A DNA stretch of 64,000 nucleotides, from positions 1 to 64,000 of the forward strand of contig JAAYVD010000112.1 of assembly GCA_012517355.1 (NCBI GenBank), given 5' to 3'. The stretch is from Candidatus Rifleibacteriota bacterium. GTDB taxonomy: Bacteria; Muiribacteriota; Ozemobacteria; Ozemobacterales; Ozemobacteraceae. Position numbers and translations under genes: made by a program. The notes beneath the pieces are model-generated. The model was given only the letters and a program-made list of their open reading frames with translations. It had not been told where the DNA came from and ran no database searches. Shown here piece after piece: positions 33,593 to 62,284 of this stretch (position 1 is the first letter of the stretch; every line of letters starts with the position of its first letter).

Positions 33593-33624
33593 GCTGCCAA
33601 CCAATGATTGCCAAGGAGGCCGCC

Positions 33625-33954
33625 ATGGAATTCGAGGTCACGACCACCGAGGGACGCCGGATCATCGCCAGCAAGGGTGATGTGCTGCACACCTGCGCCG
33701 AGGAGTTCGCGCGCGTGATCCGCGAGCAGGTCGAGGAAGGCCACCAGGTGATCGTGCTCGATTTCAGCAAGGCCAGCATGATCGACAGCGCGGGCATCAG
33801 TTCCATCGTGGCCAACATCGGCCTGGTCAAGGAACGGAACGCCCGCATCATCCTCGGCGGCTGCAATCCGACCATCCAGAAGGTGTTCCAGTTGATCGGG
33901 TTCAAGCAGCATTTCGCCGTGACCGGTACCCTGGCCGAGGCCCTGAAGGCCTGA
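33625..33954 (+). CDS. STAS-domain anti-anti-sigma factor
   Basis: 109 residues, a single STAS domain. The canonical phospho-acceptor motif MIDSAGISSI is present (serine in DSAG). When dephosphorylated, such proteins bind an anti-sigma kinase and free its target. The RsbU-like phosphatase three genes downstream is the obvious activator; no kinase/anti-sigma gene is in the window. The start ATG at 33625 follows AAGGAGG; an in-frame ATG at 33604 lacks one. First gene of the operon. Confidence 0.93.
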   Translation: MEFEVTTTEGRRIIASKGDVLHTCAEEFARVIREQVEEGHQVIVLDFSKASMIDSAGISSIVANIGLVKERNARIILGGCNPTIQKVFQLIGFKQHFAVTGTLAEALKA

Positions 33955-33975: not shown

Positions 33976-35172
33976 ATGTTCGCCCTCAAAGGATTTTCCG
34001 AATCGGATTTCGAGGTGCTGCGCCGGTATCTGACCCGGCAGACGGCGACCAAGAACCAGGTGTTGATGGAGGCGGGGAAACCCGCGTTGCAGATGTTCCT
34101 CATCGAGGAAGGCTCGGTGAAGATCGTGCAGCGCCCGGCGAAGGATGCCGGCGACGACGTGGTGCTGGGGGCGGTGAAGGCCGGCGGTTTCTTCGGCGAG
34201 GAGGCGCTGCTCGGCGAGCAGCAGATCTACGCCAACACGGCGGTTTCCATGGAGAACACCACCCTGTTCACCCTGGGCAAGGAAGGCCTGCAGAAGCTGA
34301 TGGTCGAGGCGATGGGGGTCGGCACCAAGTTGCTGCTGGCGTTGACCAAGTCCTACCGCGAGGCCCTGGCCACCCCGGAGCAGATGGCGAAGGTGCTGAC
34401 CTTCTACAGCCCCAAAGGCGGAACCGGCTGCACCACGTTGGCGGTCAGCTTCGCGTGCCAACTGGCCCGGCTGCGCAAACGGGTGGCCTACATCGACGCC
34501 GACCTGCAGTTCGGCAACGTGTCGCTGCTGATCGGGGCCCCACCCGCGCTGCACCTGGCCCGCCTGATCCAGAAGGAGACCTCGCTGACCTTCGATCGCA
34601 TCAAGGGGTACCTCCATCGGAAGCACGAAGTCGACTTCCTCTTTTCCCCCGACCAGCCCCAGGAAGCCGAGATGATCTCGCGTTCCAACCTCAACCAGGT
34701 GCTGCAGGCGATCGGGCGCCAGTATGACTTCATCGTCGTCGACACCTCCTCCCAGATCGACGACCACACCCTCCTGCTGTGGGACATGGCCGACGTGCTG
34801 GCCCTCGTCACCAACGCCGACCTGCCGGGGCTGACCCGCATGCACCGGCTGTTCAAGGTGATGGGCCGGTTGAACTATCCCAAGGCCAAGTTCGCCTTGC
34901 TGGCCAACCGGTTCGGCGATGGCCAGGAGGCCTGCCTGGCGGAACTGCGCAAGCTGCCGGTGGGCCACGTGCAGACCCTGCAGGCAGACCACGCCAACGC
35001 CCAGGCGGCCGTCATCGCCGGCGTGCCGCTGGCCCTGCAGGCCCCGGCGTCGCCCGTCACCAAGGCCCTGGAGGAACTCCTCCGCTACCTGCTGGGCGAG
35101 GAGGCGATCGCCCGCTCGCAACAGAAGGGCGGCATCTTCTCGCGGCTGAAAACCCTGATCGCCGGCGCCTGA
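33976..35172 (+). CDS. cNMP-binding-like domain fused to a TadZ/CpaE-type ATPase
   Basis: 398 residues. Residues ~1-130 form a Crp-like cyclic-nucleotide domain (LIEEGSVKIV, GGFFGEEALLG). The usual phosphate-binding arginine is absent: the segment reads QQIYANTAV where RxA is expected. Residues ~138-380 form a ParA/MinD-superfamily domain with the deviant Walker A SPKGGTGCTTLA. The second lysine is replaced by Cys, as in TadZ/CpaE-type proteins that position pili or other machines at the pole. FIVVDTSS is the switch II region. It may link a cyclic-nucleotide-like signal to localisation. It starts 21 bases after the STAS gene behind GGAGGAG. Confidence 0.85.
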   Translation: MFALKGFSESDFEVLRRYLTRQTATKNQVLMEAGKPALQMFLIEEGSVKIVQRPAKDAGDDVVLGAVKAGGFFGEEALLGEQQIYANTAVSMENTTLFTLGKEGLQKLMVEAMGVGTKLLLALTKSYREALATPEQMAKVLTFYSPKGGTGCTTLAVSFACQLARLRKRVAYIDADLQFGNVSLLIGAPPALHLARLIQKETSLTFDRIKGYLHRKHEVDFLFSPDQPQEAEMISRSNLNQVLQAIGRQYDFIVVDTSSQIDDHTLLLWDMADVLALVTNADLPGLTRMHRLFKVMGRLNYPKAKFALLANRFGDGQEACLAELRKLPVGHVQTLQADHANAQAAVIAGVPLALQAPASPVTKALEELLRYLLGEEAIARSQQKGGIFSRLKTLIAGA

Positions 35173-35186
35173 GCTGAGGAACCACG

Positions 35187-36035
35187 ATGAACAAACAGCC
35201 GGAGGCGGTCGGGACGGCCGATCGGCCTCTGTCGCTCGGGCAGGGGGTCACCTGGGTCGGCTTCTGGGACTCCGAGGCCGGCCTGCGCTGCAATCCCTAC
35301 CTGGTCTGCGACGGGGACGAGGCGGTCCTGATCGACGGCGGCAGCCGCCCCGACTTCTCGACGGTGATGATGAAGGTCTTGCAGGCGGGGGTTTCGCCCC
35401 ACCAGATCAAGGCCCTCGTCTATTCGCATTTCGACCCCGACCTGTGCGGCAGCCTCCCCAACCTCGAGGACATGATTCGGCGCCCCGACCTGGTGCTGAT
35501 CTCGGCCGCTCCCAACCACATGTTCATCCGCCACTACTCGACCACCTCCCGGATGGTCTCCCTGGCGGAAACCGGGTTCCGGTTCCGGTTCGCCAGCGGG
35601 CGGGAACTGCGGTTCACCCCCACCCCGTTCGCCCACGCGCCGGGCAGCTTCGTCACCTTCGACACCGCCACGGCGATCCTGTTCACCGGTGATCTGTTCG
35701 GCAGCCCGGGAGCGGGCGACAGCATCTTCCTGTCCCTGACCCCCACCTGTCACACCGACCACGACCGGGCCCATTGCCCCGAAGGGCGGGGAACCTGCCC
35801 CCTCCATGACCTCGCCCGGTTCCACAAGCAGGTGATGCCTTCGACCCTGGCTTTGCGGCACGCGATGGCCACGGTGCGCACCATCCCCTTCAAGGCCCTG
35901 GCCCCCCAGCACGGGGCGGTCATCCGCGAGGAGAAGGACGCCGAACTGGCGATCCGGACCCTGGAGACGCTCGAGAACGTCGGGATCGACGGGGTGGTCG
36001 CGCAGGACCCGCAGTTGACCGACCGGAGTTACTGA
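35187..36035 (+). CDS. Metallo-beta-lactamase-fold protein of the diiron (ODP/flavodiiron-like) type
   Basis: 282 residues. Candidate metal ligands are H81, D83 and D85 (SHFDPDLCG), H150 (FAHAPG), D169 (FTGDLFGS) and H242 (PQHGAV). The HxDxD core with distal H/D/H resembles the diiron oxygen-binding ODP and flavodiiron families, but Asp replaces the usual Glu and Leu follows where His is common. A Cys-rich loop (residues 188-205: CHTDHDRAHCPEGRGTC) is unusual. ODP relatives sense oxygen or NO for chemotaxis or signalling, so this may be the redox sensor of the operon. It starts 14 bases after the ATPase gene. Confidence 0.82.
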   Translation: MNKQPEAVGTADRPLSLGQGVTWVGFWDSEAGLRCNPYLVCDGDEAVLIDGGSRPDFSTVMMKVLQAGVSPHQIKALVYSHFDPDLCGSLPNLEDMIRRPDLVLISAAPNHMFIRHYSTTSRMVSLAETGFRFRFASGRELRFTPTPFAHAPGSFVTFDTATAILFTGDLFGSPGAGDSIFLSLTPTCHTDHDRAHCPEGRGTCPLHDLARFHKQVMPSTLALRHAMATVRTIPFKALAPQHGAVIREEKDAELAIRTLETLENVGIDGVVAQDPQLTDRSY

Positions 36036-36037
36036 CC

Positions 36038-37027
36038 GTGACCGGCCCGATCGACTTCGACGAGATGCTGGCGAAGGTCGCCCCCGACAACCCGAATCGT
36101 TCCTTTCTGCTCAAGAGCCTGATCGAGATCCGCGCGGGCCAGGACGACCAGGCCCTGATGACCAGGCTGATGACCGGCCTCGTGATGAAATACGCCGAGA
36201 GCGAGCGGCAGCTGAACCGGCTCAACGCCGAACTGCGCGAGAAACAGGAGCACCTCGACGCCGACCTCAAGGCCGCCGCGGTCATCCAGACGGCGCTGCT
36301 GCCCAAGCCCCTGCCCGCCGCCTCGAACGTGCGCGCCGCCTGGAAGTTCGTTCCCTGCCAGAGCATCGGCGGCGACGTGTTCCTGCTCACGCCGCTGGGC
36401 AAGCGGTATCTGATGGTGGCCGTCGTCGACATCAGCGGTCACGGGGTACCCTCGGCCATGGTGACCGTCTCGGTCTGCCAGTTCCTGCAGCCCCAGGCGG
36501 GAACGGTCTTCCAGCCCGGGGCCGGCCCCGACGGCGCGGTGGTGCCACCCGGCCAGGTGCTGGCCTCGCTCGACCGCGAGTTTCCCTATTTCCGTTTCAA
36601 GAAGACCTTTTCGATCTTCTACGGCGTGCTCGACCGCGTCACCGGCCGGTTCACCTTCGCCAACGGCGGGCACCCGCAACCCTTCCTGCAGACCCCCGAC
36701 GGCGCCCTCACCACCCTCGAGGAGCACGGCCCCATCATCGGCATGGGCCTGGGCTCGACCTTCCCGGAAGGGTCGCTCACCCTCTCCCCCGGCAGCCGCC
36801 TGACCTTCTACTCCGACGGCCTGACCGAATGCCGCAACCCCTCAGGGGAGCTGTTCGGTGACGACCGGGTGCGCGACCTGCTCGCCGCGCACCACGCCCT
36901 GCCCCTCCCCGACCTCGCCGCCGCGATCCATGCCGGGGCCAGCAGATTCGTGGCGGGAGCGGGTTTTCCCGATGACTTCACCCTCGTCCACCTGGAGTTC
37001 GCCGGCCCGCCCGCCTCCCCCGCTTGA
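36038..37027 (+). CDS. RsbU-like PP2C/SpoIIE serine phosphatase
   Basis: 329 residues. Residues ~1-85 are helical and may form a dimerisation stalk. The rest is a SpoIIE-type PP2C domain: SIGGDVFLL and VVDISGHG give the first metal ligands, YSDGLTE and DDFTLVHLEF the last. It should dephosphorylate the STAS protein encoded three genes upstream. There is no sensory domain of its own, so input may come from the neighbouring metallo-beta-lactamase-fold protein (inference). The start is a GTG two bases after the previous stop. Confidence 0.93.
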   Translation: MTGPIDFDEMLAKVAPDNPNRSFLLKSLIEIRAGQDDQALMTRLMTGLVMKYAESERQLNRLNAELREKQEHLDADLKAAAVIQTALLPKPLPAASNVRAAWKFVPCQSIGGDVFLLTPLGKRYLMVAVVDISGHGVPSAMVTVSVCQFLQPQAGTVFQPGAGPDGAVVPPGQVLASLDREFPYFRFKKTFSIFYGVLDRVTGRFTFANGGHPQPFLQTPDGALTTLEEHGPIIGMGLGSTFPEGSLTLSPGSRLTFYSDGLTECRNPSGELFGDDRVRDLLAAHHALPLPDLAAAIHAGASRFVAGAGFPDDFTLVHLEFAGPPASPA

Positions 37028-39909: not shown

Positions 39910-42900
39910 CCCGCGCGGCTCCCCCGGGCACCGCCCCGGTCGTTCCCCCGGTCGCTTCCCCGGTCGCTTCCCCGGTCGTGTCGCCTTCCGCTTCCCCGGA
40001 CACGCGCCTGGGCGTTTCCCCGGCCGACTCCCCGGCCCCCCTCCAAGCGCCCACCGCTGTGGACGCCCCCGCCGCGTTCCCGGCGGACCTGTCCCCGCTC
40101 CCGACCGACCCGTCGTCGGCCGGCGCCCCGGGCGGCCCGGGGCGGGGGAACGGGCCGCCGGTTGCGGACCGGGCCCAGGGGTCCCCGCCCCGCGGGCCGC
40201 GCGCCGCCTGGATCTCACTGGTCATGAACTGGGGGGTCCCGTTCCTGCTGAGTCTGCTGCCGCTGGTGGTCCTGCACCTCGCGGCCGGAGAGGAGCAGGC
40301 CAGGCGCGGAGCGGATGCGCGCCGGGAGCGGCGGGAACGGGTCCGCCTCCAGGCCGACCATCTGCGCCGGGCCTCGTCCTTCCCGTTCTGGGCCGAGCGG
40401 GCCGCCCGCCTGCTCAAGCGGGGCGCCCTGGCCGGGCTGGCCGGGACCCAAAGCCGGGGGCAGAACCCCGGCCACGCCGCCGCCCCGCCCCACACCGGGG
40501 ACGTCTCCGGAATCGGCCCACCCCCAGCCAAGGGCGAAGCGGCCGTGCCGATCCGTCATCCGTGGCCCCCACCAGGAGATCCTTCAGACATCGGGTCGGG
40601 TGGGACGGGCCATTTCGGCGGACCGCGGTCGCCCCCTTCCCCAACCGGAACCGCCGCCACTCCCGACCCCTCATCGGCCGAAATCGGGAGGCCGGTCGGG
40701 GTGCCGTTTTCCGGCGGGCGGCCAGGCCGGTTCCTCGTGCCCACCCCCGCCCCGGGAGGCGGGCCGGCAACCAACCGCGCCGGGGTGGCGGAAGCTCTGG
40801 CCAGGGGCCTGGGGACGGCCCTGCGTCGCCTGCAGAGATCGGAACCCCGGCCAGGGGCGGCCACGCCGTTTCGCGGCAGGCGGGGCGGCCAGGGCATCCT
40901 GCCGACCTCTGAGCGGTCGAACCTGGCGGGGTGCCAGGTATGGGCCGTTGCCTTTCCCACCGGGAATCCGGCCGAGGGGGTGGAACCCTGCCGGGCCCCT
41001 CCCCTCCGCCAGGATTTCTCCGCCCTGATGACCGGCCTGTTGCAGGACATCGGCCGGCAGCAGGCGATCGAGGCGGAGGAGGGAAAGGCGGCGCGCCACG
41101 CCGGGGGGGGCAAGAATGACGAGAGCGGTGGGGGAAGCGAGAGGCCGGCCGGGCCGTTCGACGCCACCCGGCTGCGGAGGCTGGAGGCAGGCTTCGGTGA
41201 GGGGTTGTCCGCCGACCTGTTCACCGGCAGCCACCGCGGAACCGGCTTTCCCGTGCTGTTCCGCGGAATTCCCCACATCATGGTCTGGGACCTCGTCTTC
41301 TTCCGGGAACGGACGGTCGGGGCCTTCCTGGTGCTGCTGCCGCTGCCCGACGAGGCCGGCCACGCCGCGCTGCAGTTGACCCTGCGGTACTGGCCGAAAG
41401 GCGGGTTCCGGCCGGCGTTTCTGCCCATGCCGACCGAGCGGCGGGGGATCCTGCCTCCCCCCCTGCTCCACCCCGACCTGGTCCGGGCCCCCGTCCTGGC
41501 CGACATCGAGCGGCTTCGTCGCCAGATGCGGATCTGGCAGCCGGCCGGCACCCGGTTCGAGGGCACCCGGGTGGGGCTGCTGGCCCCCTTCACCGGCCGG
41601 CTGGTCCGGTTGCCGGCCGCCGCGGGATGGTGGGGCATGGTCACCCCCCTCGATCCGCTGACGGGACACCTGGGACTGCTGGTCGGACGCTTTCCCGACC
41701 TGCCCCCCTCCGCCCTGGATCTGTTCCGCGGGATGGCCGACATGGCCTGGATCTTCGTCTGGATCATGGTCGCCATCCGGGCCGCCCTGGTGGGGACGCG
41801 CCCGGCCGGCGTCCGGCGTCAGGCCACCCTGTGGCTGCTCGGCGTCACCGGCATGCCGGTGGTGCTGGGGATCATGGTCGGCGTCCAGCTGAACGGAGAC
41901 CTGCGTTCCAACCGGCTCGAGCAGCTCGAACGCGACCTGGAACGGGCGATGGGCGACCTGGAGACCGGCGCCAACCGGCTCAACGACCGCATCGTCCAGC
42001 AGTGCAAGGAGCGGTTCCATGAGGGGGGGTTCCGGGCGGCCCTGCGGCAGGCCATCGCCAACCCAGCCGCCCGGGAAGGGTTCCTGCGCGACCTGGCCGC
42101 GGGCTTCCGGCGGCACGGGCTGCCCATCTCGGGCCTCCGGGTGATGGGACGGGACGGCCAGGCCATGGAATCCTTCGCGCCCTGGCTGCGGCAATTGTCC
42201 ATCCGGCAGCTGCAGGCAAGCCTGCAGGATGCCTGGGACCTGTATCTCGCCGGGCCCGATGGGGGCCGGAAAAGGCCGACCACCACCCTCGCCAGGTGGC
42301 AGCAGAACGTCTTTGCCGTCAAGGGGGCCGAGGAACAGCCGCTCGCCTGGCAGTCGGGCAACCGCAAGTTCTTCCTCTGGCGGATGATCATACAGGAGAA
42401 GGGCCGGCCGTTCTGCCAGGTGGCGGTGGTCTGGAGCCACGAGAAGCTGTACCGGGCCTACCTCGAGCGGGCGGTGCAGGGACCGGGGCTGTTCTCCGGC
42501 CGGACCGACCTCTCCCTGTCGGTCTATCTGCCGCAGGGGGACGACCTCGAGGAGGTTGGTGCCTCCGCCAATCTGGTGGCCGGGCGCGAGGATCTGCGGC
42601 GAGTGGCCCGGGCAGCGGTGCGGGCGAAGATGCGCCGGATCACGGAGGATGCCCTGACGGTGGGTTTCCCGAGCGAGCGCCTGCCGGGCTACGTCTTCCT
42701 GGGCCAGGCGTCGCTCGCGCCCCTGCGGGCGGAGCTGTGGCGGGAATGGCTCGGCATCGGCATCGTCACCCTCGGGCTGTTCGCCCTCGTGCTCGCGGCG
42801 GCGCGGCTGCTGGGGTTCCGGCTGGCCGCGCCGGTGGTGCGCATGACCGCGGAACTGCGGCGGGTGGCCGCCGGAGACTACGCGGCCCGGGTCGGCGACG

Positions 42901-45900
42901 ACCGCCGGGACGAGCTGGGACAGGCCGGCCGGGCGCTGGACCGCATGACCGGCTGGCTGGCCGAGCGGCAGGAGATGAGCCGGTTCGTCTCCTCCCAGGT
43001 GCTGGACGTGGTGGCCGCCGGGGACTACCGGGGGGCCATGGCCGGCACCCAGCGCGAGGTGGCGATCCTGATCTCGGACATCCGGTCGTTCACCACCCTG
43101 TCGGAGGAGCATCCGGCCCGGGATATCTTCGCCCTGGTGAACGGGCACATGGAGGCCATGACCCGCGCCATCCAGGCGGAAGGCGGGATGATCGACCGGT
43201 TCGTCGGGGACGCCGTGCAGGCGGTCTTCTACGCGGCCGAGGCCGGAACGCCGGGGGTGGGCGGCCCCGCCGACCGCGCGATCCGGGCGGCCCGGGCGAT
43301 GCGCAAAGCGCATCTGGCCAGGATCGAGGCCCGCCGGCGGGAAGGGTTGTTCCCCTACGAGATCGGCATCGGCATCGAGCAGGGAACGGTGGTGGCCGGC
43401 GTCATGGGCGACGGGCAGGCCCGGCTGGACTTCACGGTGCTGGGAGAGCCGGTACAGGCCGCGGCCGAACTGGAAGCCGGCTCGAAGCACGGCACCGCCA
43501 CGAAGATCATCGTCTCCGACCTGGTCAGGCAGACCGTTGGCGAGAGTGTCCCGTGCCGCCGCCTGCCCGACGGCCACCCCGGCTGGGAACTCGCTTCGCT
43601 CGAGGAGGGCGCTCCCCCCGCCTCCCCCGCCTCCCCCGCCGTCCCCCTTCCCGATCCCGCCCCCATCACGCCAGCCCGGCCTCCCCGCCTCCCCCGCCCT
43701 GATCCCCCCACCTTCCCATCCGCCCACCACCGCACCTCCCACCTTCCCTCCCTCGCAAGGCCATCATCTCCCCAACCCGCCACGCTCCCCGCGCCTCACC
43801 CCCCGCCTCCCCACCTCGCCGCCTCCCCCTTTCCCTCCTACGGCGGCCTGCTTCCCCTGCTGGTTCTGTGGCTGGTGCCCGCCGGCCTCCTCTTTCTCGG
43901 GGCGGCGGCCCTGCGACAGGCGGGAATCCGCCAGGCGATCGGCGAGGCGAGGGACCAGGTGCGGGAACGCCTCGGCCGGCTGGAGGGGGAGATGCGGCCG
44001 GAAACCCTGGCGGCAAGGCTGCTCGCCGGAATCGTCATCGGGGCCGGCCACCCTCGCCGGGGAACGCCGGCCGGCCCTCTGAACCCGGAGGAAGCCAACC
44101 GCCTCGGACGGGCGTTGGCCAGCGCCAACGCGAAATCTGCCGGCGCGGCGACGACGGCCAGGCCGGGGAGGCCGTCATCCGGCCGCTTTTTCGTCCTCTC
44201 CGCCCCCGCCGACATCGATCCGGGATCGGCGTGGGGGACCGAATACATGCCCAGGATCCGGCCCGCCCAGGTGCGGCTCCTGTTCCAACGCGCCCGGGGC
44301 GACTTCCCCCTGAGCCTCGACGAGGTCCGCCGATTCGCCACGATCCTCCTCATGATGGAGATCGACCCCCTGTTCACCCCCAATCGCTCCTATTTCCGCC
44401 TGTCCGACTGGTTCTACCGGTGGTTCCAGCGCTTCTTCGTCGGGCCTCGCGGGGGAGCCATCGGCCACCACGGGTTCATCCGCAACGCCCTGCTGTCCCG
44501 CGGCAACCTGCTGCCGATGCGCTTTTGCGAAAGCGACTGGCTGATGTTCTGGCTGCCGGTCAGGCGGCAGCCCGGTGCCGGTGATGGCGGAAACCGGACC
44601 GCCCAGGAGGGGCCGGGAACGGACCGGGGACTCCCGAGAACCGGCGGCACTGGCCTCTCAGCCCGTTCAAGCCGGGATGAGGGGGATCCTGACGGGGACG
44701 GGCCCCGCCCGGAGGAAGCCCGCCAGGGGGGCATCAGCCAGGCCACGGTCATCGGAAGCGGATCGCCCGGGGCAATCCCCGCCGGCACCCCGCCAGGGCC
44801 GTACTCCCCGCCAGCCGGGGACCGGGCGGCTGCCGCGGAGGGGCCGGTGGCGGGGCTGGTATTGGCTTTCCTGCCCGGCAAGGGGCTGGCACCCGAGGCC
44901 GGCTACCGATTCCTGGCCCAGGACCTGGCCCGCCAGGGGTTTCCCGCCGCGATCGCCTGGAAGGCCGGTCGGAGACGCCGCCTCGTCCGCACGGGGGCCT
45001 TCCGGAAAGCAGGGCTGTCCGCACAAGAACCGGGCGACGCACCATTCACGCTCGAGGAGCGGGCGGGGTGGGTGGTCGGGTCGCAGGTGTCGGGGGGGCT
45101 CCGCCCCGCCCGGGTGTTCCTGGCCCGGGATTGGCACCGGCACCTGCCGTGGTCGGCACACCTGGGGACAGCGGGGATCCTGGCCGCCGGGGGTTGGCTG
45201 CTGCTCGGGGGCTGGACGGTCTGGCGGCTGGGCCGTGGCGAACGCGGGGCCCCGGCCTCGTTGCGGGGCCTGCTGATGGGAACCTTCGCCCTGGTGGTGG
45301 TTCCCACCCTGGCCGTCGGGTTCTTCGGGGTCGAGCGGTCGCTGCTGGAGCGGGCCACCCGGCTGCGGGCCGACCGGGCCCGCGACCTGACCGACCTCCT
45401 GGCGGCGGTCGACCGCAGCCAGGACCTGGCCCTCACCTTCGCCTGCAACCTTGTGGCGACCCAGCTCGACCGGCCGGAGTTCCTGGCCGACCTGGCCCGG
45501 TTCGAGAAAGGATGGCCACCACCCGACCGCCCCGATGCCCCGCCTCCGATGCGCTCCCTCCTGGTGGCCTGCCAGTTCCTGGGGCTGTGGCCGCGGGCCG
45601 CCGAACTGGTGTCGGTCACCGGCCTGACCGGCGGCAGCGGGCACGACCAGCGGTTTTTGGAAGCCCTGCGGTGGTTGTGGAACCGCAACCTGTCCGCCCG
45701 GCACGCCGCGGCGGGGGCCGACCTTCCCGTCTCGCAGCGGCGCGCGAACCTGGTGGTGGGGACCCAGGTGGAGGAGTTCGGAACGATCCTCCGCAGCCTG
45801 ATGCCTCCCGCGGGTCTCGCGGCCTGGATGAGCGCGCCCCGCGCGGTGGTGTCGGTCAGCTCCTCTCTGGAGGAGCCCCAGTTCTTCTCGACCCACCACC

Positions 45901-47216
45901 TGCGCCGGGACGGCATCCCCACCTGGATCGCCGAGGTACAGTTCTCCCAGGGGCCTCTCCTGCGGCTCGCCCTCGAAGACTGGGACCGGTATCTGGCCCT
46001 GGCCCCCCACCCCGGATGGCGGATCGGCGTCTCCAAGCGGACGTTTCCCGGATGGCGGCTGGTCTCCCCCTTCGTATCGACCGACTGGGAACCGGGTCCG
46101 AAACCGGCCGACCCAGGCTTCTACCGGCAGACCCCGACCGTTCGGGGCGAGGAACCCCGAACGACCCTGCTCTGCCGGATGGCCGCCGAGGGCGGGCGGC
46201 CCGCCATCGTCCTTCCCGAGAGACGGGCGACCGGTCGGCTGTTCGCCGCCACGCCGGGTGGGGGGCCCGGCAACCTGCTGTTCTACGGCTCCCTGCCGGC
46301 GGCGGCCATCTTCGACGAGGCCGAAACCCAGGCCGCCGGCCAGCGCGGGCTCCTGCTGGCGCTGGCCGTCCTGGCCGCCCTGCTGGCCGCCGGCGTGGCC
46401 GAGGCCTTCCTGCAGCCGCTGCTCGCCCTGGCCGCGGCCGCCCGCCGCCTGATGGGGCGCGAGTTCACCGCCCGCGTGCCCCAGGACCGGGACGACGAGT
46501 TCGGCCACCTGGCCACCGCCTTCAACGAGATGGCGGCCGGGGTCGAACAGGGGCGGCGGCTCCGGCGGTTCGTCTCCGACTCGGTCCGCGTCGCGGCCGG
46601 GAACCGCGACCGCGCCGCCGCCGCCCGGGCCGGTGAGCACCGGGAGGCGGTCGTCCTGTTCGCCGGCCTCGGAGGGTTCAAGCCCCTGCTGCACACCGTG
46701 CCGCCCACCGCACTGGTCGCCGACCTCAACCGGTTCCTGGCGGGCGCGGCGGCCGCGGTGCGGGCCGAGGGCGGCGAGATCGACAAGTTCATCGGCGAAA
46801 AGGTGCTGGCCGTCTTCCACCCCGACCGCTTCGGGTCGGCCACCGCCGCCCTGGCCGCCGCCCTGCGCGCGGCGACCCGTCTGGCCGAAGACACCCGCGC
46901 CCTGCCGGCCTGGCGCGACCACCCGGTAGGCATGGGCCTGGTGGCGGGGAAGGTCCTGGCCGGCATCCTGGGCACGGCCGAGGTGCGCCTGGAATACACC
47001 GTCCTCGGCGATACCGTCAATCTCGCCGCCCGACTGTGCGACCTCGCGCTCCGGGAGGGCGGCGGCCTGGCCGTCGAGCAGGAGTCGCTGGCGCGGGCGG
47101 ACGCCCTGGCCGACCCCCGGTTCCGACGGCTGGGCGGGATCGCCCTCAAGGGCAAGACCCGCACCGTCGACTGCTGGCTGGCCCCGTCCCTCGGCCGGCC
47201 GGCCGGAACCAGGTGA
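39906..47216 (+). CDS. Two-headed transmembrane class III adenylate cyclase with complementary C1/C2 domains
   Basis: 2436 residues from a GTG overlapping the previous stop (GTGA). Two halves share one plan: TM, large outer domain, TM-TM, outer domain, TM, HAMP, cyclase. TM segments lie at about 102-125, 608-632, 639-665, 949-972 and 1315-1337, 1752-1775, 1789-1810, 2149-2170. Cyclase 1 (~1050-1200) has metal ligands D1058 and D1102 but Q1184 and E1188 where Asn/Arg should stabilise the transition state, and R1098 for the purine Lys. Cyclase 2 (~2245-2400) has G2254 and E2298 in place of the aspartates but keeps K2294, T2365, N2372 and R2376. One composite active site for ATP is inferred. The N-terminus and inter-half linker are Pro-rich. 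Confidence 0.88.
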   Translation: MTRAAPPGTAPVVPPVASPVASPVVSPSASPDTRLGVSPADSPAPLQAPTAVDAPAAFPADLSPLPTDPSSAGAPGGPGRGNGPPVADRAQGSPPRGPRAAWISLVMNWGVPFLLSLLPLVVLHLAAGEEQARRGADARRERRERVRLQADHLRRASSFPFWAERAARLLKRGALAGLAGTQSRGQNPGHAAAPPHTGDVSGIGPPPAKGEAAVPIRHPWPPPGDPSDIGSGGTGHFGGPRSPPSPTGTAATPDPSSAEIGRPVGVPFSGGRPGRFLVPTPAPGGGPATNRAGVAEALARGLGTALRRLQRSEPRPGAATPFRGRRGGQGILPTSERSNLAGCQVWAVAFPTGNPAEGVEPCRAPPLRQDFSALMTGLLQDIGRQQAIEAEEGKAARHAGGGKNDESGGGSERPAGPFDATRLRRLEAGFGEGLSADLFTGSHRGTGFPVLFRGIPHIMVWDLVFFRERTVGAFLVLLPLPDEAGHAALQLTLRYWPKGGFRPAFLPMPTERRGILPPPLLHPDLVRAPVLADIERLRRQMRIWQPAGTRFEGTRVGLLAPFTGRLVRLPAAAGWWGMVTPLDPLTGHLGLLVGRFPDLPPSALDLFRGMADMAWIFVWIMVAIRAALVGTRPAGVRRQATLWLLGVTGMPVVLGIMVGVQLNGDLRSNRLEQLERDLERAMGDLETGANRLNDRIVQQCKERFHEGGFRAALRQAIANPAAREGFLRDLAAGFRRHGLPISGLRVMGRDGQAMESFAPWLRQLSIRQLQASLQDAWDLYLAGPDGGRKRPTTTLARWQQNVFAVKGAEEQPLAWQSGNRKFFLWRMIIQEKGRPFCQVAVVWSHEKLYRAYLERAVQGPGLFSGRTDLSLSVYLPQGDDLEEVGASANLVAGREDLRRVARAAVRAKMRRITEDALTVGFPSERLPGYVFLGQASLAPLRAELWREWLGIGIVTLGLFALVLAAARLLGFRLAAPVVRMTAELRRVAAGDYAARVGDDRRDELGQAGRALDRMTGWLAERQEMSRFVSSQVLDVVAAGDYRGAMAGTQREVAILISDIRSFTTLSEEHPARDIFALVNGHMEAMTRAIQAEGGMIDRFVGDAVQAVFYAAEAGTPGVGGPADRAIRAARAMRKAHLARIEARRREGLFPYEIGIGIEQGTVVAGVMGDGQARLDFTVLGEPVQAAAELEAGSKHGTATKIIVSDLVRQTVGESVPCRRLPDGHPGWELASLEEGAPPASPASPAVPLPDPAPITPARPPRLPRPDPPTFPSAHHRTSHLPSLARPSSPQPATLPAPHPPPPHLAASPFPSYGGLLPLLVLWLVPAGLLFLGAAALRQAGIRQAIGEARDQVRERLGRLEGEMRPETLAARLLAGIVIGAGHPRRGTPAGPLNPEEANRLGRALASANAKSAGAATTARPGRPSSGRFFVLSAPADIDPGSAWGTEYMPRIRPAQVRLLFQRARGDFPLSLDEVRRFATILLMMEIDPLFTPNRSYFRLSDWFYRWFQRFFVGPRGGAIGHHGFIRNALLSRGNLLPMRFCESDWLMFWLPVRRQPGAGDGGNRTAQEGPGTDRGLPRTGGTGLSARSSRDEGDPDGDGPRPEEARQGGISQATVIGSGSPGAIPAGTPPGPYSPPAGDRAAAAEGPVAGLVLAFLPGKGLAPEAGYRFLAQDLARQGFPAAIAWKAGRRRRLVRTGAFRKAGLSAQEPGDAPFTLEERAGWVVGSQVSGGLRPARVFLARDWHRHLPWSAHLGTAGILAAGGWLLLGGWTVWRLGRGERGAPASLRGLLMGTFALVVVPTLAVGFFGVERSLLERATRLRADRARDLTDLLAAVDRSQDLALTFACNLVATQLDRPEFLADLARFEKGWPPPDRPDAPPPMRSLLVACQFLGLWPRAAELVSVTGLTGGSGHDQRFLEALRWLWNRNLSARHAAAGADLPVSQRRANLVVGTQVEEFGTILRSLMPPAGLAAWMSAPRAVVSVSSSLEEPQFFSTHHLRRDGIPTWIAEVQFSQGPLLRLALEDWDRYLALAPHPGWRIGVSKRTFPGWRLVSPFVSTDWEPGPKPADPGFYRQTPTVRGEEPRTTLLCRMAAEGGRPAIVLPERRATGRLFAATPGGGPGNLLFYGSLPAAAIFDEAETQAAGQRGLLLALAVLAALLAAGVAEAFLQPLLALAAAARRLMGREFTARVPQDRDDEFGHLATAFNEMAAGVEQGRRLRRFVSDSVRVAAGNRDRAAAARAGEHREAVVLFAGLGGFKPLLHTVPPTALVADLNRFLAGAAAAVRAEGGEIDKFIGEKVLAVFHPDRFGSATAALAAALRAATRLAEDTRALPAWRDHPVGMGLVAGKVLAGILGTAEVRLEYTVLGDTVNLAARLCDLALREGGGLAVEQESLARADALADPRFRRLGGIALKGKTRTVDCWLAPSLGRPAGTR
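40516..40602 (+). repeat. Dispersed palindromic repeat, copy G (diverged, inside the cyclase CDS)
   Basis: GATCCGTCATCCGTGG and CCTTCAGACATCGGGTCGGG match the consensus; the 5' arm is degenerate. It encodes IRHPWPPPGDPSDIG, in the same frame as the peptide of copy D, in outer domain 1 of the cyclase. Confidence 0.6.
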
Positions 47217-60534: not shown

Positions 60535-60987
60535 TCAGAGGATCTGGCCGAGGATGGCGTCGAGTTTCTGGTTGAGGGCGCGGTATTTGCCGGCCAGCAG
60601 CTTCGACAACTGCAGCAGGAACTTCATCCCGAACACGGGGTCCTGCTTCTTGATGACCTCGAAGTGCTGGTAGTCGAACTTCCCGATCTCGGTCTCGCCC
60701 ACCGCCATGGCGTGGGCGGTGCGGCCCTGCTGGTCGGCGAAGGCGACCTCGCCGAACATCTCGTTGGGCTCGACGAACGAGGCGAAGGTGCCGCCGTTGG
60801 GGAAGGTGCGGTAGATCTTCACGCGGCCGGAGAAGACCAGCTTCAGCGAGGATCCGGTGGCATCGGCCAGGACCTCCTCACCATCCTTGTAGGTTCGGAA
60901 GGAGAGGAAGGTCGCCAACAGTTTCAACTCGTCCTGGGACAGGTCGCTCAGGCCTTTGAACCGGGCCAGTCTGAACTCTTCGGACAT
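60535..60987 (-). CDS. Stand-alone cyclic-nucleotide-binding domain protein
   Basis: 150 residues: a Crp-like cNMP domain with a complete phosphate-binding cassette (FGEVAFADQQGRTAHAM, Glu and Arg present) and a C-terminal helix, without a HTH. Unlike the fusion protein in the signalling operon, this one looks able to bind cAMP or cGMP and could report the product of the tandem cyclase. AAAGGAGG lies just upstream of the ATG at 60987. Confidence 0.85.
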   Translation of the reverse strand: MSEEFRLARFKGLSDLSQDELKLLATFLSFRTYKDGEEVLADATGSSLKLVFSGRVKIYRTFPNGGTFASFVEPNEMFGEVAFADQQGRTAHAMAVGETEIGKFDYQHFEVIKKQDPVFGMKFLLQLSKLLAGKYRALNQKLDAILGQIL

Positions 60988-61315: not shown

Positions 61316-62284
61316 TCAGGCCTGGAAGAAGCCTTCCAGGAAATGGACGACGGCGGCGACGTGGTTTCCGATCGCCGTCTCGTCGGACAGCACGATCCCG
61401 TCGAAGCCGGCCTGGGCGACGTCATACAGGTGGACGATCTCGCTGCGCGAGGGGAGCGGCGCCCGCACCATCGACCCCAGCACCTCGCCGGCCAGGAGCT
61501 TCGGCCCACGCAGCCGCGGGAAGGCCGCCACGAATTCCGCCTGCAGCCGGCCCAGGTCGCGCAGCTCGGCCTCCGCCCCCAGGTCGCCGCGACAGAGCCA
61601 GAGTTCGTCGAAGGCGGCATCGAGGGCGGGCAGGGCGGCGAGCGCGGCCGGCCGTTCGACCTTGGCGATCAGCCGCCGGCCCGCGGTCAGGGGCCGGAAC
61701 AGGGCCGCTTCGCGGCCGTCCTGGACGAAGGAGACGGCGAACTCCACGCCGGGGAAGGCCATTCCCGCGGCGATGGCGGCCGCGTCGCGGGCGGTGACGC
61801 GCGGCAGCTCGTAGGCCCGGTGCGGGCAGTTCAGCCCCTTCCCCGGCCCCAGCGGCCCGGTCACCAGGCAGTCGGCCAGCAGGCGGTCGGGGCCGGGCCG
61901 GGCGGTCACCCGCAGCACCACCCGCCGGTCGTTGAGATGCAGTTCGTCGCCGACCCCGGTCAGGGCGAACACCGCCTCGTGCGGCACGGGGATGACCGCG
62001 GGGTCGCGGGAAGCCGCCGCCAGGCGCAGTTCGACGCGGGCGGGCACCGCCTCCACGACCGGGCAGTCGCCGACGCGCACCTTGGCGCCCTGCAGGTCGA
62101 GCACGACCGGCAGCGGCCGGCCGAGCTCGCGGCTGAGGTCTGCCACCTGGCCCAGGTGGCCGGTGATCTGGTCGGGGGTCAGGTGCGAAGCATTGAGCCG
62201 GAACCGGGTGGCGACGCGCGCCATCTCCCGGATGGTCTCCCGGCCCGCCGAGGCCGGTCCGATGGTCAGGACGAAATCCCGCAT
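61316..62284 (-). CDS. Minimal pyruvate kinase (barrel and B domain, no C-terminal regulatory domain)
   Basis: 322 residues against ~470 in ordinary pyruvate kinases. It begins at the TIGPAS strand and ends after the barrel. Active-site features kept: RLNASH (for RxNxSH), LDLQGAKVRV (for GPKIR), SFVQDG, AKVERP, LCRGDLGAEA and GSMVRAPLPSRSEI, then LSDETAIG. The whole C domain that binds effectors and forms tetramers is missing. It should convert phosphoenolpyruvate and ADP to pyruvate and ATP if active; some substitutions leave room for another role. AAGGAG precedes the ATG. Confidence 0.8.
   Translation of the reverse strand: MRDFVLTIGPASAGRETIREMARVATRFRLNASHLTPDQITGHLGQVADLSRELGRPLPVVLDLQGAKVRVGDCPVVEAVPARVELRLAAASRDPAVIPVPHEAVFALTGVGDELHLNDRRVVLRVTARPGPDRLLADCLVTGPLGPGKGLNCPHRAYELPRVTARDAAAIAAGMAFPGVEFAVSFVQDGREAALFRPLTAGRRLIAKVERPAALAALPALDAAFDELWLCRGDLGAEAELRDLGRLQAEFVAAFPRLRGPKLLAGEVLGSMVRAPLPSRSEIVHLYDVAQAGFDGIVLSDETAIGNHVAAVVHFLEGFFQA

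Follow-up and report, generated by a model that had tools for sequence, protein, structure and literature searches.

How is a protein to be read in which a cNMP-binding fold is fused to a MinD/CpaE-type ATPase, and in which both domains depart from the expected residue at a key position? Such a fusion is encoded in the window (the whole stretch of DNA analysed here, 64,000 nucleotides long), which corresponds to contig C8 of a 7.1 Mb bacterial genome in 184 contigs (G000). A first-pass annotation, made from the letters of the DNA, described the protein as a degenerate sensor joined to a TadZ/CpaE-type localisation ATPase, rather than a classic cAMP-activated ATPase, and proposed a search for tad or pilus genes elsewhere in the genome. 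The fusion is a new form of the CpaE/MinD-type ATPases, and the more interesting part is its operon, together with an N-terminal domain linked to ODP-family proteins (Table 1). Throughout, G, C and L denote genomes, contigs and fetched loci, respectively; genes at the compared loci were called with a home-made codon-usage finder, and names given without a Pfam match were assigned by eye.

Table 1. The four genes of the operon and the features within them (positions in the window).
Feature	Position	Strand	Evidence
STAS-domain protein, anti-anti-sigma type, Ser in MIDSAG	33604..33954	+	Pfam STAS E 3.4e-15
cNMP-fold / MinD-CpaE-type ATPase fusion	33976..35172	+	ORF, Pfam, NCBIfam, PDB matches
cNMP-binding fold, residues 23-109	34042..34302	+	Pfam PF00027 E 7.4e-14
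Phosphate-binding cassette, residues 70-100, with Gly74-Glu75 and Tyr85 (codon 34228-34230) for Arg	34183..34275	+	Alignments
AAA_31 core of MinD/CpaE-type ATPase, residues 139-295	34390..34860	+	Pfam E 3.6e-12; PDB matches
Deviant P-loop KGGTGCTT, residues 147-154	34414..34437	+	Sequence; comparison with relatives
C-terminal tail ending GGIFSRLKTLIAGA	35125..35169	+	Conserved; likeness to MinD/FlhG membrane targeting inferred
Stand-alone protein of the ODP family with a beta-lactamase fold; putative di-iron ligands intact	35187..36035	+	Pfam ODP E 1.8e-50
SpoIIE-type PP2C phosphatase, metal-site Asp residues intact	36038..37027	+	Pfam SpoIIE E 4.7e-40
Phosphatase N-terminal domain, helical-looking, common to ODP-linked class III cyclases	36038..36262	+	Profile comparisons

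The ATPase fusion and its relatives

The open reading frame (ORF) encodes 398 amino acids, with an AGGAG-type site preceding its ATG. Both Pfam domains score above their cut-offs (cNMP_binding, 51.9 bits vs. 27.5; AAA_31, 47 bits vs. 27), which confirms the location and the fusion given by the first-pass annotation. No NCBIfam model reaches its cut-off among the best 25 of 31 matched; the top-ranking models are those for MinD, archaeal (70.7 bits) and bacterial, and for the CpaE-like Ssd of actinobacteria (52.7 bits vs. a cut-off of 154.45). The solved chains ranking highest for the ATPase are the ‘site-determining’ proteins 4rz2/4rz3, the ParA-family protein 3ea0, FleN and MinD, and matches to solved chains extend to about residue 370-390. 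AlphaFold2, run on the window protein with two relatives (a three-sequence alignment), gave a pLDDT of 33.5 and a pTM of 0.21.

The nearest named relatives of the fusion are those from ‘Candidatus Ozemobacter sibiricus’, 70% identical over residues 1-398, and from another Ozemobacteraceae MAG, 74% identical over the 264 residues present on its contig. Among the matches listed, at least 38 of the 39 genomes of the phylum contain one at E <= 1e-10, most of these being weaker and paralogue-like. Alignment and tree comprise 81 rows from fetched loci (window protein included), chosen as all listed cNMP-like matches placeable by match start plus part of the others; rows at contig ends, L017 and L040 among them, are fragments.

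Group A, to which the window protein belongs, comprises 12 of the 81 rows, from 11 genomes, has the cNMP fold, and forms one clade in the tree, which covers the ATPase domain alone (support 100/99); two of its members, L002 and L019, have long end branches. Its sister is an FHA-fused group (6 rows, second P-loop Lys in 0/6), with support of 82/88, a join that is not starred and that the tree program flags as long-branch and maybe false. Group B (12 rows) has the cNMP fold with a GEVE cassette that lacks Arg, and both P-loop lysines in 12/12; group C (16 rows) has the cassette Arg in 16/16 and both lysines in 16/16; group D (20 rows; mostly longer proteins, TPR-like by eye) has the Arg in 20/20, the second Lys in 19/20 and the signature Lys in 5/20. 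Six Tad-type rows (second Lys in 3/6) and nine ‘other’ rows, including the genome's FlhG, were set aside from these groups.

Three further observations concern the paralogues. The signature/second Lys pattern of group D (L007, L008, L009 and L010, with 16 relatives) is the reverse of that in group A. In the same genome as the window, contig C96 carries an FHA-CpaE, a Ser/Thr kinase, a PP2C-like phosphatase (kinase and phosphatase by eye) and a divergent cNMP-CpaE together (L057 6944-11989), and contig C22 encodes a very divergent cNMP/MinD-like protein of 481 amino acids with the P-loop DTGSGKS and a very long branch (L054 5896-7341).

The P-loop reads KGGTGCTT, as the first-pass annotation had it, with Lys147 kept and Cys at residue 152, the site of the second lysine in MinD. 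This second lysine is missing from all 12 group-A rows (Arg in eight, Cys in three, Asn in one); the signature Lys is retained in 11/12, D174 in 12/12 and the Walker B Asp in 10/12. The reading of the P-loop as broken was rejected in view of this conservation across the group.

Nor is the reading of Cys152 as loss of function supported: in excerpts of published work, E. rectale TadZ is reported to have ATPase activity despite loss of both lysines (PMC10482377), and the CpaE of Liberibacter is printed with the deviant Walker A KGGVGSS (PMC8513845). The former excerpt also reports that the ATPase activity of a mycobacterial MinD homologue was not significantly altered by K-to-A substitution of one or the other lysine, and McdA of one type is described as having no signature lysine (excerpt of PMC8262871). 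Among the solved chains, the alignment of 3ea0 likewise shows no Lys at the second site of the P-loop. A plasmid control of six regions (two annotated Tad loci, two ParA-ParB pairs and two unannotated regions) was of little use, one CpaE of the two annotated Tad loci having the second Lys and the other lacking it. By analogy with these proteins, the P-loop change appears ordinary for CpaE/TadZ and is compatible with retained ATPase activity.

Loss of the second lysine throughout group A and of the Walker B Asp in 2/12 members, such that hydrolysis may be dispensable, would suit a pseudo-ATPase scaffold, in which nucleotide is at most structural and the protein only bridges STAS and the membrane. 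We consider this unlikely, since most or all members keep the signature Lys, D174 and the Walker B Asp, and a TadZ with neither lysine is reported active (excerpt of PMC10482377).

The likeness to CpaE/TadZ is that of a MinD/ParA-superfamily ATPase of about 250 residues, with a deviant Walker A, behind an N-terminal regulatory domain. The window protein differs in having a cNMP_binding domain in place of the receiver-like domain, a STAS partner, and IDH, STAS, ODP and SpoIIE genes as neighbours instead of a Tad/Flp pilus locus. The proposed search for tad genes elsewhere in the genome did find a Tad locus, on contig C13, where a separate CpaE with a receiver-like N-terminus is encoded beside a TadA-type ATPase and RcpC matches; the window protein is thus not the CpaE of that locus. 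The term localisation-type ATPase survives in the wider sense of MinD-superfamily likeness (PDB matches), while the strict assignment to TadZ/CpaE does not.

If the protein were nonetheless TadZ/CpaE proper, a Tad pilus localisation ATPase moved from its locus, this would accord with its CpaE-like sequence and with the Flp pilin genes near the copy in G010, where the two Flp-pilin matches, the only ones in that genome, are about 1.9 kb away from the STAS gene and 2.3 kb from the ATPase gene; G010 is the only one of the group-A loci looked at with Flp matches close by. Such a relocation is highly improbable, given the separate receiver-type CpaE on C13, the substitution of a cNMP fold for the receiver-like domain, and a tree that separates group A from the Tad-type CpaEs. 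In G036, a cNMP/CpaE outside groups A-D occurs amid Tad-like genes (by eye); the stretch (L063 2761-9176) includes a receiver-type CpaE, and the cNMP-CpaE has the canonical Arg and the P-loop KGGSGCST.

A similar C-terminal tail occurs in 11/11 full-length group-A proteins, and we infer from its sequence a resemblance to the membrane-targeting tail of MinD/FlhG. Its hydrophobic moment exceeds that of shuffled tails in 0/11 (54 to 352 of 500 shuffles reach it; 310/500 for the window tail vs. 15/500 for the tail of the same genome's FlhG, the positive control). For the 9-mer tail cores of 10/11 proteins, the figure is 639/5000 shuffles, the window's own core falling outside this set because a Thr breaks the search pattern. 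MinD and FlhG (FleN), which are among the closest solved sequences and which the conserved tail recalls, differ from the window protein in their second P-loop Lys, and neither MinC/MinE nor flagellar neighbours are found at the fusion. The genome has a separate FlhG amid flagellar genes (by eye).

The cNMP pocket

Of the two cAMP/cGMP-receptor features checked, the cNMP fold is present in the window protein and the phosphate-binding Arg is absent, as the first-pass annotation had noted: the cassette (GGFFGEEALLGEQQIYANTAV) keeps Gly74-Glu75 and has Tyr85 where same-length group-D cassettes have Arg. The PDB chains ranking highest in a search with the cNMP profile are the Toxoplasma protein PCR12, followed mostly by PKA/PKG-type chains. 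Across the 12 group-A cNMP domains 13 columns are invariant, among them Gly74, Glu75 (12/12) and Tyr85 (12/12), whereas position 77 is Ala in 11/12 and Val in 1/12; the domains of the 12 aligned group-A relatives are 35-77% identical to that of the window protein.

The invariant Tyr and the retained Gly-Glu across 12 relatives mark the pocket as constrained, not decayed. The earlier description of a ‘degenerate’ sensor is therefore not supported, Tyr85 remaining among the 13 invariant columns although members drop to 35% identity, and the reading of the pocket as degenerate was rejected in view of the conservation of Gly74, Glu75 and Tyr85. Its other half, that the protein is no classic cAMP-activated sensor, fares better: with the phosphate Arg missing, the fold is unlikely to serve as a classic cAMP receptor, and whatever constrains the group-A pocket is probably not cAMP.

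The position of the swap can be specified to within one residue. Group-D cassettes align ungapped to those of group A and place their Arg exactly at the group-A Tyr; groups B and C have cassettes shorter by one residue, and HMMER alignments of the group-A profile to PKA/PKG chains mostly put a gap at the Tyr, which leaves the Arg/Tyr register uncertain by one. Two group-A members (G012:C134 and G000:C22) have Arg at 84, one residue ahead of the Tyr, the place where the shorter group-C cassettes have theirs; ‘no Arg at either place’ therefore describes 10/12 members, the window protein included.

Could cAMP or cGMP still control the ATPase, bound through Glu75 and other contacts and supplied by the genome's many cyclases? 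The cNMP fold stands above its Pfam cut-off, the genome contains 87 class III cyclase-domain matches as well as an ODP-cyclase pair, and two group-A members have the Arg just described. We judge such a receptor improbable, because ten of the 12 members have Arg at neither 84 nor 85, and because Arg is kept throughout groups C and D, so that cAMP-type pockets are retained elsewhere and the group-A pocket is changed. The 87 matches are to family PF00211, and some giant frames account for two of them each. One protein in the window (40059-47216; 2385 amino acids) has a HAMP and two cyclase domains, the second site being without the first metal Asp. This giant double-cyclase gene was rejected as a cognate cyclase: tblastn gave no match in the fetched stretches of 11 loci (L012, L044-L052 and L063) and only one weak partial match (L054), and its cyclase sites look incomplete.

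It is also conceivable, if rather doubtful, that the altered pocket takes another small ligand (a nucleoside, another nucleotide or a lipid), with Tyr85 stacking or hydrogen-bonding. The invariance of Tyr85 and Gly74-Glu75 would fit, and there is a precedent in the trypanosomatid PKA regulatory subunit (PKAR), whose cNMP fold lacks the Arg and yet is able to bind purine nucleosides according to an excerpt of PMC10959531. In the nucleoside-binding cassette described there, Ala is replaced by Glu and Arg by a small or polar residue; in group A, by contrast, Arg is replaced by Tyr and Ala77 is kept, so that the second Glu of the trypanosomatid GExE is absent. A nucleoside pocket in the window protein was demoted on this ground and fits paralogue group B better.

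Group B, the nearer match to the GExE cassette, has A, S, C or T at the Arg position in 12/12, a pair of swaps like that described for PKAR (excerpt of PMC10959531). By this analogy its members (L006 1444-2655 on C96 of the same genome, L076, L078, L080, L081, L084, L085, L089, L090, L092, L093 and L098) are possible bacterial nucleoside sensors joined to a MinD/CpaE ATPase in which both lysines of the P-loop are present.

The operon and the ODP-linked domain

The operon says more about the ATPase fusion than its two altered residues do. Four genes on the same strand, separated by 21, 14 and 2 bp, encode the STAS protein, the ATPase fusion, the ODP and the SpoIIE-type phosphatase. A STAS gene lies directly upstream in 12/12 group-A loci, including the second copy of the window's own genome, on C22, whose STAS is also matched by Pfam. 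Most STAS relatives begin at a Met corresponding to that at 33625, which may be the true start. A profile of the 12 STAS proteins, searched against six-frame ORFs of 21 context loci, returned the 11 expected (all of the seeds present among those loci) and one further STAS in L053, with 0 matches in L054-L063, ten loci with other CpaE-type paralogues.

Downstream of group A, an ODP-SpoIIE pair is found in 6/10 loci with a visible flank (the window, G016, G027, G024, G026 and G006) and is absent from 4/10 (G013, G012, G010 and G000:C22); the group-A loci of G017 and G025, at contig edges, are outside this count. The four-gene array is kept in part or whole within one bacterial family. Key residues are conserved in the STAS Ser (12/12), in the ODP motif HxDxD followed by H, D and H (6/6), and in the SpoIIE motifs GGD, Dx[SA]GHG and DD (6/6). 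We take the Ser to be the usual phosphorylation place, as in SpoIIAA, and HxDxD, H, D and H to be di-iron ligands, as in flavodiiron proteins.

A STAS protein with a conserved Ser and a SpoIIE-type phosphatase are also the components of STAS/PP2C partner switches (SpoIIAA-SpoIIE, RsbV-RsbU type). Here, however, they share the operon with a cNMP/CpaE ATPase instead of an anti-sigma kinase, and the phosphatase comes after an ODP. The operon contains no HATPase_c_2 kinase, and 14 matches above cut-off occur elsewhere in the genome. Among open-licence PMC papers, nothing was found on this operon arrangement. Two observations concern other genes in or near these loci: the window encodes a lone cNMP-domain protein of 150 amino acids (60535-60987) near a pyruvate-kinase-barrel protein (61316-62284, minus strand), and pyruvate-kinase-barrel look-alikes (by eye) directly follow SpoIIE in G027, G024, G026, G025 and G023.

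The 39 genomes contain 12 stand-alone ODPs (E < 1e-35), spread over eight genomes that all have group A, one of the 12 (G025:C81) being cut by a contig end; other ODP-family matches are mostly frames of ~400 amino acids, read as flavodiiron proteins. Within the family (24 genomes), the stand-alone form occurs in 8/11 group-A genomes vs. 0/13 others (Fisher p 0.0002, uncorrected for relatedness), or in 8/11 vs. 1/13 if a contig-end fragment in G023 is counted (Fisher p 0.002, also uncorrected for relatedness).

In a second arrangement, a class III cyclase is paired with the ODP, and a ferritin/rubrerythrin-like gene (by eye) adjoins; this is found at G000:C6, G024:C27 and G013:C444, and in G025 it seems to be divided between the contig ends of C185 and C81. 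In the four ODP-linked cyclases, the metal Asp pair of class III enzymes is retained, as are the Lys/Asp and Asn/Arg positions. With its ferritin/rubrerythrin-like neighbour, the cyclase-ODP pair is an apparent oxygen-gated cyclase module. The pairs lie at L110 3539-5776 (C6 of the window's own genome), L112 4071-6168 and L113 3489-5616, and also in L129 and L130.

Phosphatases and cyclases share an N-terminal domain. When eight SpoIIE N-termini, and no cyclases, were made into a profile and searched with filters off against 1193 ORFs of chosen loci, three ODP-linked cyclases were matched (E 1.4e-8, 4.4e-8 and 1.3e-6), the next match being another SpoIIE (E 0.0018). In reverse, a cyclase profile matched 7/8 SpoIIEs (E 1.2e-5 to 0.0017), and hhalign of the SpoIIE against the cyclase N-termini gave a probability of 95% (E 2.3e-8, 58 columns). 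When the joint alignment (A4) was searched against the 39 genomes, 13 matches were obtained in nine genomes, 11 of them its own seed and the other two the SpoIIE adjoining the ODP fragment of G023 and the cyclase of G025:C185. All A4 matches are on SpoIIE phosphatases or class III cyclases, and 12/13 adjoin an ODP, the 13th reaching a contig end.

In an excerpt of PMC7666581, the ODP of Treponema denticola is described as sensing oxygen and as being coupled to a protein that resembles a receptor but has no membrane and sensing modules, so that the pairing of ODPs with soluble signalling proteins is already known. That system is similar to ours in its stand-alone ODP adjoining a cytosolic signalling protein; its partner is a chemoreceptor, whereas here the partner is a SpoIIE phosphatase or a class III cyclase with a common N-terminal domain. 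Among open-licence PMC papers, none was found in which an ODP is paired through this domain with phosphatases and cyclases.

A candidate oxygen-gated partner switch

The reading that we tentatively prefer, though with slightly less than even confidence, is an O2- or redox-gated partner switch in which a MinD/CpaE-type ATPase is the effector. The ODP would bind iron and signal the presence of O2 (alternatively, of peroxide or NO) to the phosphatase via the SpoIIE N-terminal domain, a step suggested by the occurrence of this domain beside ODPs (12/13 matches). The phosphatase would then set STAS phosphorylation against a kinase encoded elsewhere, and unphosphorylated STAS would dock on the cNMP/CpaE protein, as its position upstream in 12/12 group-A loci suggests. 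The latter may be an ATP-sandwich dimer of the MinD/CpaE type, with the C-terminal tail keeping it at the membrane; the membrane step draws on the conservation of this tail, the amphipathicity of which is not significant beside the better FlhG control. Docking of STAS would cause the cNMP/CpaE protein to release or recruit its cargo, and the cNMP fold would act as a protein-binding or other-ligand module and not as a cAMP switch.

As to the cargo, the Flp-pilin matches of G010 and the cNMP/CpaE amid Tad-like genes in G036 point to a Tad/Flp-type pilus, which is our best guess and a thin one. Of the group-A loci looked at, only that of G010 has Flp matches close by, and the Tad locus of the window's own genome has another CpaE.

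More speculatively, and with less confidence than we place in the switch itself, the two ODP arrangements might be uses of one portable oxygen cassette. In it, stand-alone ODPs would act on a dedicated helical domain of ~60 residues, grafted onto output enzymes of two kinds, SpoIIE phosphatases and class III cyclases. The phosphatase branch would act through STAS on a MinD/CpaE-type ATPase, the cNMP fold of which would have changed from a cAMP pocket to a conserved Tyr-based docking or ligand site.

The ODP-linked domain offers a concrete route by which a di-iron oxygen sensor may address a phosphatase or a cyclase, and the invariant Arg-to-Tyr swap bears on the extent to which the cNMP fold is used for things other than cyclic nucleotides. 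Many ParA/MinD-family ATPases are described as ‘orphans’ whose partner protein has not been identified (excerpt of PMC10241942), and control of such an ATPase by the phosphorylation state of a STAS protein would be an unusual kind of input. If the cassette reading is true, oxygen would determine where a membrane machine is placed or how it is assembled, and would do so through the phospho-state of a ParA/MinD-family protein's partner.
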